This document shows positions 29,741 to 62,795 of a stretch of 64,000 nucleotides of DNA, piece by piece. Numbering within the stretch: the first letter of the stretch is position 1; each line of letters starts with the position of its first letter. Under the pieces are notes generated by a model. It was not told where the DNA came from. It searched no databases and saw nothing but the letters and a program-made list of their open reading frames with translations. A program made the translations under genes and the position numbers. Origin of the DNA: an uncultured Verrucomicrobia subdivision 3 bacterium (GTDB lineage: Bacteria > Verrucomicrobiota > Verrucomicrobiia > Limisphaerales > UBA11358); assembly GCA_903865745.1 (NCBI GenBank), contig CAIPKV010000079.1:1-64000 (forward strand), read 5' to 3'.

Positions 29741-29947
29741 ATGACGACGACTGTTGACGCAATCTATGAGCAGGGCAAACTGCTTTTGCCGGCTCCGTTG
29801 TCGCTGCCCGAAAAAGCCCATGTCCGCGTGACCATTGAAACGGTTGACGCCGAACGCGCCTCCTGGCTGAAACTTTCCGAGACCTCCCTCTTGAAAACCT
29901 GGGACAATGCCGGGGACGACGTTTTCAATGAACTGCTCGCGAAATGA
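29741..29947 (+). CDS. DUF104/AF2212-type antitoxin
   Basis: A 68-residue protein with the family start TVDAIYEQGKLLLPAPLSLPEKAHVRVTIE (described in outline): a short beta-barrel-like N-domain, then a helical tail that would wrap the toxin. It overlaps the start of the MazF/PemK gene by 20 bases, with the antitoxin first. The pair is a type II toxin-antitoxin module of the chromosomal kind, not part of the mobile element. Confidence 0.8.
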   Translation: MTTTVDAIYEQGKLLLPAPLSLPEKAHVRVTIETVDAERASWLKLSETSLLKTWDNAGDDVFNELLAK

Positions 29948-30239
29948 TGTCGTCCTCCTGCCGATTCCGTTCACGGATTTGACCAGTCGCAAGGTTCGTC
30001 CCGCCGTTATTCTAGGTCGCAACGGCGATGATTTGTTTCTCGTTCCCCTTTCTTCCGTCCTGGCCAACACCGACTTTCCGCTTCAGGAATGGCGCGCGGC
30101 GGGAATCAATGTGCCTTCTGGCATCAAGGCGCAGTTGGCCACGGTGGAAGCCGGACTGGTCGTGAAAATAGTCGGGCGGCTGGCGGCGACGGATGTTCAA
30201 TCTCTAGACGAACGGCTGCGGACGTGGTTGAATTTATAA
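29928..30239 (+). CDS. MazF/PemK-family toxin endoribonuclease
   Basis: A 103-residue protein from the ATG at 29928. The signature NDVVLLPIPFTDLTSRKVRPAVIL (in outline: P-I-P-F followed by K-x-R-P) is that of the MazF/PemK fold, whose basic loop cuts mRNA at short sequences. The conserved Arg-Pro-Ala segment is present. It is partnered by the DUF104 protein upstream. The target sequence cannot be predicted from this. Confidence 0.85.
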   Translation: MNCSRNDVVLLPIPFTDLTSRKVRPAVILGRNGDDLFLVPLSSVLANTDFPLQEWRAAGINVPSGIKAQLATVEAGLVVKIVGRLAATDVQSLDERLRTWLNL

Positions 30240-30856: not shown

Positions 30857-30950
30857 GCCAATAATCTAACAGGTGGGTCGCCGCGCGGATAATTGAAAAA
30901 CCGGAGCCGGCCATCGAATAGATTGATGCAGCCAAAACTGCCAAGGGGAG

Positions 30951-31052
30951 TTTTACCGCGAAATACGCGAAATACGCGAACGGGGAGGGGAAAGAGGTTT
31001 TGGCCGGCGATTCGGGTCCGGGCCGGCAAATTTCGCGTATTTCGCGGTAAAA
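30951..31052. repeat. Perfect 22-bp inverted repeat of a dispersed element (CCGCGAAATACGCG)
   Basis: The arm 30951-30972 (starts TTTTACCGCGAAATACG) is the exact reverse complement of 31031-31052, with 58 bases between. The same word followed by AACGGGNAGGGG recurs at 44913-44950, and an inverted variant lies at 45637-45666. This is a dispersed, hairpin-forming repeat, REP-like, located just before the first 21-bp array. Confidence 0.85.
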
Positions 31053-31096
31053 ATTCGTGTTTATGTCCCAATACAGGACGAAACGGAGGTTTTTAC

Positions 31097-31372
31097 GCGG
31101 ATTATTTTGAAATAAATGCGCATATATCTGAGATAAATGCGCAAATGTCCGTCCCAGATGCGCATTTATCTCTGCCAAGTACGCATCGGGCAGAAATATA
31201 TACGCATATAAATTTGAAAAATACGCATTGGCGGAAGATAGGCGCGCATATGTGGGTGATAAATGCGCAAATCCGAGAAATATACGCGCGTATTTGCGAG
31301 AAAAATGCGCATCTACTGAATATATATGCGCATCGCCGAGGGATATTTGTGCATTTATGTGACATTTATCCG
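31097..31372. repeat. 21-bp-pitch degenerate tandem array A
   Basis: The hexamer GCGCAT or a close variant (ACGCAT, GCGCAA, GCGCGT, GTGCAT, GCGGAT) begins at 31097, 31118, 31139, 31160, 31181, 31202, 31223, 31244, 31265, 31286, 31307, 31328 and 31349. That is thirteen cores exactly 21 bases apart without an indel. The spacer is A/T-rich with ATAAAT before the core and TAT after it. Because 21 is a multiple of 3, long open frames cross the array on both strands with a heptapeptide rhythm. They have no start context and I do not treat them as genes. Confidence 0.95.
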
Positions 31373-31400
31373 TCGCCGCCAGCCGTCGCCGGATAAATCT

Positions 31401-31467
31401 AATGAGGAAAGCCGGAAGGCAGGAAAGGAATCAGTTCCGTTTTTCCGGTTTTCCTGCTTTCCTCATT
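31401..31467. terminator. Long hairpin between array A and the GH2 gene
   Basis: AATGAGGAAAGC (31401-31412) pairs perfectly with GCTTTCCTCATT (31456-31467). The interior holds purine-rich GGAA and pyrimidine-rich TTCC tracts that can extend the stem imperfectly. It lies 54 bases upstream of the GH2 start. It could stop read-through into the glycosidase cluster or act as a 5' leader structure; neither is certain. Confidence 0.5.
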
Positions 31468-31520
31468 AATCTTCGGCAAATTGGTTTGCCACGGCTACGA
31501 CGTTTGCCCAAATTGGTTTG

Positions 31521-44822: not shown

Positions 44823-44900
44823 GTTTTGAATTTTTAATTTTGAGTTTTTAATGAAGCTGCCGCGCTCAAGTTATGAGTTGTGGGTTATGTGTGATGAGTT
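44823..44900. repeat. A/T-rich GAGTTTTGAAT-type low-complexity repeats
   Basis: Just upstream of lpxK lie TTTTGAATTTTTAATTTTG (44823-44841) and then GTTATGAGTTGTGGGTTATG-type copies up to 44900. These words match the DNA that forms the two insertions in waaF and the tail of lpxL. They appear to be a dispersed repetitive sequence; their function is unknown. Confidence 0.55.
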
Positions 44901-44912
44901 GAAGCGGGGAAC

Positions 44913-44950
44913 ATTACCGCGAAATACACGAAATACGCGAACGGGAAGGG
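44913..44950 (+). repeat. Dispersed CCGCGAAATAC repeat, left copy at array B
   Basis: TTACCGCGAAATACACG followed by AAATACGCGAACGGGAAGGGG. It is nearly identical to the copy at 30953-30990 and is inverted relative to the copy at 45637-45666, so the two bracket array B. Confidence 0.8.
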
Positions 44951-45138
44951 GAGCCCTGTTCAATAAGGAAAACCAGACTTACAACGCCAACATGACCTGG
45001 TTCTTTTCGAACGAATCTACCTTGCGCCTCTGGCTGGCAGCTTACTAACCTTTTCTTCACTCTTTTACTGCCGAAGAAACCTTTCTGGTGGCTGGTTGAA
45101 CCAAATGAGCTGTCGATTTATGGCGAACAGTTCGCCAA

Positions 45139-45485
45139 TGAACGTGGTTACCTGCCGGTTGCAGCCCTTTACCTCGCGGGTAAACGCATTTAGTTGCCGA
45201 CTAAAGAGGTTTACCTCGCCGGTAAGCGCGAATACCCGCCGGGTAAACCCGTTTATTTGCCGGGGAAACGCAATTACCCGGCGGGTAAGGGCAAATATCC
45301 TTCGGGTAAAGACGATTACCGGCGGTATAAACGTGTTTATACCTCGGGTAAACGTGTTTCCCCTCGGTATAAATGGGATTACCTGCCGGGTAAACGCGTT
45401 CACTTGCCAACTGAACGTCTTTATTCGCCGGGTAAATGGGTTTACCCACCGCTTCCAACGACTAAAATGCCGTTCAAACGGCAAA
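45139..45485. repeat. 21-bp-pitch degenerate tandem array B
   Basis: Cores of the form TAAACG (variants TGAACG, TAAGCG, GAAACG, TAAATG, CAAACG) begin every 21 bases from 45139 to 45475. Clear cores lie at 45181, 45202, 45223, 45244, 45265, 45286, 45307, 45328, 45349, 45370, 45391, 45412 and 45433; positions 45160 and 45454 are weak. There is no indel over 16 periods. The typical unit is CGGGTAAACG followed by CGTTTACCTGC. All frames stay open for long stretches because the period is a multiple of 3; these are not genes. Confidence 0.95.
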
Positions 45486-45568
45486 AAACACCACTTTTAG
45501 ACATAAACTGGCGAAATTGACATACAGGTGGCGATATTTGACCAGGTTCACCTCCACACCCAAACCAA

Positions 45569-45598
45569 AACGGCGCGAAGAGGTTTCTTCGCGCCGTT
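45569..45598 (-). terminator. Strong hairpin, probable terminator of the downstream minus-strand gene
   Basis: AACGGCGCGAAGA (45569-45581) pairs perfectly with TCTTCGCGCCGTT (45586-45598) around GGTT. On the minus strand it is followed by TTGGTTTGGG. It lies about 105 bases past the stop of the minus-strand gene at 45704-46177. Confidence 0.7.
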
Positions 45599-45636
45599 GG
45601 TGTTTCTATTACTGATTCAAAAGTCTTTCCGGTCGC

Positions 45637-45666
45637 TTTCGCGAATTTCGTGACTTTCGCGGTAAA
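45637..45666 (-). repeat. Dispersed CCGCGAAATAC repeat, right copy at array B
   Basis: Its reverse complement reads TTTACCGCGAAAGTCACG followed by AAATTCGCGAAA, differing from the left copy at 44913 by a few bases and lying in opposite orientation. Array B and the terminator hairpin lie between the two copies. Confidence 0.7.
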
Positions 45667-45703
45667 CCTTCCAGTTCAAGTGGCCATCCGCAAGGATCGA
45701 GGA

Positions 45704-62509: not shown

Positions 62510-62795
62510 TGCACCGGGAACGAGAGTGGCTGCACTGGGTTTCCGAGTCGGTGCACCAGACACGCGAGTCGCCGCACCGGATTTCCGAGTTGCTGTGCCG
62601 GATACGCGTTTCGCTGCGCCAGATTGGGGCAGGTTTTCACCGGTATGAGACCCTCTAAACCAGATACGCAACTTGCTGCGCTGGGTACGCGACTCACTGC
62701 GCTGGGTACCCGACCTGCGGCGTCGGATAGACGGGTTACTGTGACGGATACGCGACGTGCTGCGCCGGTAACGCGCGGCTCGTTGCCGTGTCCGG
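62510..62795. repeat. 21-bp-pitch degenerate tandem array C
   Basis: Units with TGCGCCGG-type cores (TGCACCGG, TGCACTGG, TGTGCCGG, TGCGCTGG, TGTGACGG) begin at 62510, 62531, 62552, 62573, 62594, 62615 and 62636. After one 1-base slip they continue at 62656, 62677, 62698, 62719, 62740, 62761 and 62782. Between the cores a GATACGCGACT-like segment recurs. It lies in the 569-base gap between the propeller gene and the truncated GH2 gene; nothing else in that gap is recognisable. Confidence 0.9.

Follow-up and report, generated by a model that had tools for sequence, protein, structure and literature searches.

The window, by which we mean the whole 64,000-nucleotide stretch analysed here, carries a tandem repeat, array A, in an intergenic region adjoined by a GH2 gene (Table 1). 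A toxin-antitoxin pair, consisting of an AF2212-like antitoxin and a PemK/MazF-like toxin, lies at positions 29741-30239, and an inverted repeat, AATGAGGAAAGCCGGAAGGCAGGAAAGGA...TTTCCGGTTTTCCTGCTTTCCTCATT (31400-31468), is situated just to the right of array A and has related copies in several congeners. Upon re-reading the sequence, we found that the thirteen cores described in the earlier note do form an unbroken series, starting at intervals of exactly 21 bp from 31097 to 31349; as had been proposed, this spacing makes sense in terms of the helix, 21 bp being two turns of B-DNA. The cores read, in order, GCGGAT, GCGCAT, GCGCAA, GCGCAT, ACGCAT (three times), GCGCAT, GCGCAA, GCGCGT, GCGCAT, GCGCAT and GTGCAT; five of the thirteen are exactly GCGCAT, the third position is G in all thirteen, and each adjoining position is conserved in 12 of 13. 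Mean identity at lags of 21, 42 and 63 was 0.55 over positions 31089-31372, whereas 5000 dinucleotide-preserving shuffles gave 0.258±0.017 with a maximum of 0.32, and the top value at any lag from 10 to 44 across 500 shuffles was 0.34. A shuffled control of similar periodicity, named beforehand as an observation that would speak against the array, was therefore not obtained. Array A is missing from the Tandem Repeats Finder output because its units are too diverged. The GC core is palindrome-like as described, since GCGCAT sits within the 8-bp palindrome ATGCGCAT, and the unit consensus of array A is among those palindromic at p<0.05 relative to column-order shuffles. The alternation of an A/T-rich spacer with a GC core holds for array A, but not as a general design, since in other arrays the spacers are GC-rich and the cores AT-rich.

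Table 1. Positions in the window of the three arrays and of the features associated with them
Feature	Position	Strand	Description
Empty site	22899..22905		genes adjacent here; in sister genome G014, a 528-bp insertion (L180:9670-10197) holds a 21-bp array
Intergenic region with array A	30857..31520		flanking genes divergently oriented
REP-like copy	30953-30985	+	TTACCGCGAAATACGCGAAATACGCGAA
REP-like copy	31030-31053	-	TTACCGCGAAATACGCGAAATACGCGAA
Array A leader	31080..31099	+	GAGGTTTTTACGCGGATT; common to the homologous C38 array, there AGGTTTTTGACGCGGATTA; read directly
Array A	31089..31372		13 units, 21 bp; ATGCGCAT-type core, variable A/T-rich spacer; homologous array at C38:6418-6583
Inserted segment with array 2	44862..45690		about 830 bp, boundaries approximate; missing in relatives
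REP-like copy	44918-44955	+	TTACCGCGAAATACGCGAAATACGCGAA
Array 2	45108..45443		16 units, consensus AAACGCGTTTACCTGCCGGGT, half-site TTTACC/GGTAAA
Array 2 trailer	45452..45560	+	common to arrays C49:7665, C85:38973 and C13:22977, whose half-sites differ
REP-like copy	45637-45672	-	TTACCGCGAAATACGCGAAATACGCGAA
Array 3	62511..62782		13 units; steps of 21 bp except for a single one of 20 bp; the weakest array in the window; not measurably palindromic

The earlier note had seen array A as a single array; the array itself stands, but not its isolation, as it is a member of a genome-wide class. A period scan of the 64-kb window revealed two further strong period-21 arrays, arrays 2 and 3, whose sequences differ from that of array A, with array scores of 12-17 versus a peak of 4.3 in shuffled windows. 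The genome is that of an uncultured Limisphaerales bacterium, and one flanking protein has 91% identity to its counterpart in an uncultured Verrucomicrobia subdivision 3 bacterium (VK4_bin-0324). From the 3.63-Mb genome (87 contigs), 1.175 Mb was sampled and scanned for any period from 10 to 50, yielding 57 rows with a period of 20-22 or 42, about 54 of which are clear arrays; coding repeats account for at least one row (L022:19331, whose frame is Ala/Pro-rich) and perhaps for two others. The density is about one array per 22 kb in the 1.175-Mb sample, from which we estimate, by extrapolation, roughly 165 arrays genome-wide. When periods 10-50 were freely tested in the first 775 kb, 21 (or 42) was the best in 35 of 42 hits; the exceptions to the 21-bp unit were one array of 22 bp, one of 20/21 and one of 41. 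Each array contains 10-18 units (mean 12.8). The arrays occupy intergenic gaps, including roughly one in three of the gaps that measure 400 bp or more, with no preference found in the orientation of the flanking genes, and the genes beside about 50 of them are mutually unrelated housekeeping genes, representing 157 Pfam families, none recurrent. No motif was common to the flanks of all arrays, the matches being to subfamily trailers or to the REP-like repeat found throughout the genus, and leaders and trailers are shared by the members of subfamilies only. The sequence is private in almost all arrays, and the common part is the geometry of 21 bp, two half-sites and 10-18 units. Because units within an array are only about 57% alike, many arrays are missed by standard repeat finders. 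We hold the existence and anatomy of this class with high confidence. A noncoding array of about 22-bp GAAG-rich units was also noticed on a Sumerlaeia-labelled contig (L139:3130-3560) and may represent an analogous element in a different phylum.

Between random units of one array, identity was 0.79 in the best-conserved columns (the core) and 0.35 in the worst (the spacer), with 0.27 expected by chance from composition. Conserved columns occur in clusters (lag-1 autocorrelation z 9.4), flanking a variable dyad centre on both sides. The unit consensus was palindromic at p<0.05 against column-order shuffles in 28 of 57 arrays, for example TTCC-N4-GGAA (L021), GTACAG-AACC-CTGTAC (L013) and TTTCCCTCGTCAGGGAAA (G045); in roughly half of the arrays no palindromic character could be measured. 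With a period of 21 bp, one dyad entails a second dyad 10.5 bp off, so that successive half-sites, about one helical turn apart, point in opposite directions. Units become mildly less similar the farther apart they lie, and they also alternate with a period of 42 bp; alternating higher-order similarity of this kind was seen in the arrays at L013:2741, L180:1721 and window position 31100. The G014 array of AAGGTTATTT units (L180:9670-10050) ends in two copies of an inverted motif, AAATAACCT, with the orientation flipped.

Translation, the other observation named beforehand as refuting, found no support, as the two ORFs over array A have no Pfam match. All six frames contain stops in the homologous array (L018/C38), as they do in 18 of 60 arrays, and protein-coding heptad repeats were rejected on the basis of these closed frames and of the unmatched array A ORFs. 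Selection for tandem hairpins, in which each 21-nt unit would fold after transcription into RNA or extrusion as single-stranded DNA, appears improbable. Such folding would fit the self-complementary consensus, the compensated switches between arrays described below and the finding that single strands fold better than shuffles (z -2.4 for array A and -4.4 for array 2). However, partner-specific covariation was absent inside arrays (mean z -0.07, 57 arrays), which argues against selection for fixed hairpins; the period matches that of B-DNA (21.0) and not A-form, no Rfam match was found anywhere in the window, and the orientation of flanking genes is unbiased.

The earlier note proposed that array A might be intrinsically bent DNA or a loading site for HU or IHF. 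In a dinucleotide wedge model, the end-to-end ratio of array A was 0.94 compared with 0.90 for its own shuffles, so no extra bend is predicted, and array A ranked 48 of 57 arrays in curvature. For the arrays as a class, the model predicts a little more curvature (ratio 0.853) than for shuffles (0.923) or for arrays with permuted columns and the same 21-bp period (0.889); half of the effect over shuffles is thus obtained with any unit repeated every 21 bp. HU-type proteins are encoded in the genome, but the IHF consensus occurred 0 times in all arrays, where 1.6 occurrences were expected, and curvature would not need homogeneous palindromic cores private to each array. We thus consider it quite improbable that bending or HU/IHF loading accounts for the arrays, while the broader notion of an array loaded with protein is still the best guess. 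On one side of the L185, L052, L056 and L018 arrays, the flanks carry 4-6-bp A/T tracts roughly 10 bp apart. A-tract trailers of this spacing, which would also agree with bending, show a weak one-side excess (14.1 vs 11.8 nt per 120 bp), and the A/T tracts at one end suggest that bent DNA may lie beside, not within, some arrays.

Array 2 shares its trailer with three arrays (C49, C85 and C13) and its unit with a fourth (C59), and an inter-unit dyad, AAACGCGTTT, is common to all five. Their half-sites are TTTACC/GGTAAA, TTTAGC/GCTAAA, TTTGCC/GGCAAA and TTTTGCA/TGCAAAA. Complementarity between left and right half-sites was 0.53 within an array versus 0.34 across arrays, whereas that of the common AAACGCGTTT dyad was 0.58 both within and across the five; the half-site is thus switched symmetrically and in all units of an array. 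Arrays L007 and L013 have about 200 bp of flank and the first and last units in common, but their interiors differ (14 vs 18 units), and L056 and L243 share a flank of about 30 bp with different dyads.

The genes flanking array 2 are mostly 30-60 bp apart in relatives, and up to about 125 bp apart in one. At array A, the corresponding interval in G039 is about 400 bp shorter, and no 21-bp periodicity was found upstream of the adjoining GH2 gene in 8 relatives. The sequences of arrays A and 2 had no match in 48 congeners. Elsewhere, arrays were found in G014 (5 in 140 kb) and G045 (1 in 180 kb); samples of 18 other congeners, many just 20 kb, contained none, an absence that is provisional. Orthology of the G045 array L185 with L244 of the present genome was rejected, since the left gene matches but the arrays are on opposite sides of it. 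The best reading is that the arrays are inserted intergenic elements resembling BrickBuilt (see below), each with a leader, about 10-18 tandem 21-bp units and a trailer.

One array, L252 in the present genome and L176 in G014, occupies one locus between orthologous genes. The pair aligns over 231 bp without gaps at 59% identity, compared with 41% for non-corresponding units, unit order is kept without indels, and column identity between the species tracks core conservation within arrays (r = 0.73). Although drawn from a single array pair, these alignment data speak more for selection acting on core and phase than for neutral drift of a satellite. The neutral explanation would have slippage produce the 21-bp arrays, unequal exchange homogenise them and template switching at hairpins create palindromes, all without function. 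It agrees with the private sequences, the identical ends with different interiors of L007 and L013, the degenerate end units, the mild decay of similarity with distance together with the 42-bp alternation, and the patchy phylogenetic distribution. We nevertheless regard it as unlikely, as it does not account for exactly 21 bp in unrelated sequences, the contrast between core and spacer (0.79 vs 0.35) is strong, and core and unit order without indels are retained across species in the one pair.

A search of the open-access literature found no description of such arrays. The nearest description is that of BrickBuilt, a minisatellite-MITE of Porphyromonas gingivalis with 19 scattered intergenic copies, in which 23-nt tandem units, up to 22.8 copies, lie between a leader and a tail, the unit containing both conserved and non-conserved sites (PMC4596501). 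All BrickBuilt copies have one unit sequence, and terminal inverted repeats define the element (PMC4596501). The 21-bp arrays are likewise dispersed and intergenic, with leader and tail around a tandem array, but they differ in the unit of 21 bp, in the estimated 165 copies and in a dyad-symmetric core that is private to an array or small subfamily. At the cleanest insertion tested, the 528-bp segment of G014, the ends showed neither a target duplication nor a terminal inverted repeat exceeding those of shuffles. By unit sequence and terminal repeats, therefore, the arrays are not members of BrickBuilt, though built alike, and they belong to what looks like an unreported class.

In geometry, as read from the DNA, the arrays resemble the iterons of plasmid and phage origins and centromeres of the parC/tubC type, which are phased direct repeats of 18-22 bp, often with inverted half-sites, that are bound cooperatively. 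Iteron and centromere arrays, however, occur once per replicon beside rep or par genes and are matched to one protein, whereas the 21-bp arrays are genome-wide, have private sequences and, in the flanks of about 50 of them, no adjacent cognate rep/par gene. Scattered intergenic palindromes are also a feature of REP elements and BIMEs. REP elements have one sequence in common and depend on RAYT; by contrast, array density shows no correspondence with the number of Y1 transposases (2 here, 2-10 in relatives). The REP-like repeat TTACCGCGAAATACGCGAAATACGCGAA, which is found across the genus and is frequently arranged in inverted pairs, has tens of copies here and occurs in many congeners, independently of the 21-bp arrays; the array 2 insertion contains one such inverted pair, but the repeat is scattered independently. 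Numerous intergenic repeat sets in a single genome have a parallel in the TAACTGA direct repeats of Beggiatoaceae, with 169 sets in one genome (PMC4679880). CRISPR arrays were considered and rejected, the criteria being a repeat of >20 nt, unique spacers of protospacer length and cas genes; here the unit is 21 bp with a core of 8-12 bp, and no cas families were among those shown for the flanking genes.

The arrays are thus unlike any repeat system that we found described, and their layout suggests that they may be tracks along which proteins dock, aligned on a single DNA face. Specifically, we propose, with a probability of roughly 0.45, that each array may be a helically phased lattice of putative palindromic binding sites for a DNA-binding protein that assembles cooperatively. 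The two-half-site core of each unit is kept while its spacer drifts, and in dyad-symmetric arrays the spacing of ~10.5 bp between half-sites of alternating orientation would place them along a single face of B-DNA. The 21-bp period is established in the sequence; the one-face contact geometry is what we infer from it. Such operator-like sites would each accept a dimer, permitting cooperative assembly of a dimeric protein along one helix face, and the loaded array might act in insulation, in local organisation of the nucleoid or as a sponge titrating a regulator. What selection would maintain is the phase, homogeneity and symmetry of an array, not any particular sequence, and new half-site variants could spread through an array by concerted evolution, through unequal exchange or inverted template switching, in a manner that would spare the end units. 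Within the third of the genome that was sampled, no paralogue family was big enough to provide each array with a factor of its own, the largest paralogous DNA-binding family comprising 20 response regulators, and the lattice consequently leaves the array-private specificity without explanation. That specificity, the operator-like palindromes in 10-18 copies and the high turnover would suit a decoy function, in which the tandem operators of each array titrate a different mobile-element regulator. We consider this very improbable, however, as array A had no match in phage or plasmid records, and a viral pattern scan gave 53 hits, those inspected being ordinary short tandem repeats, mostly in coding-like sequence.

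Dispersed bacterial repeats normally have their sequence in common and differ in place. It is conceivable, although we think it doubtful, that the present arrays constitute a new category of chromosomal element, namely dispersed phased arrays in which a private dyad address, presented 20-36 times on a single DNA face, is rewritten whole by a dedicated process, giving loci their own identity for protein assembly or DNA-DNA recognition. The private sequences and common geometry point either to a constraint read from DNA architecture and not from a fixed motif, or to a rewriting process that acts on whole arrays; in bacterial genome biology, each of these would be without precedent.
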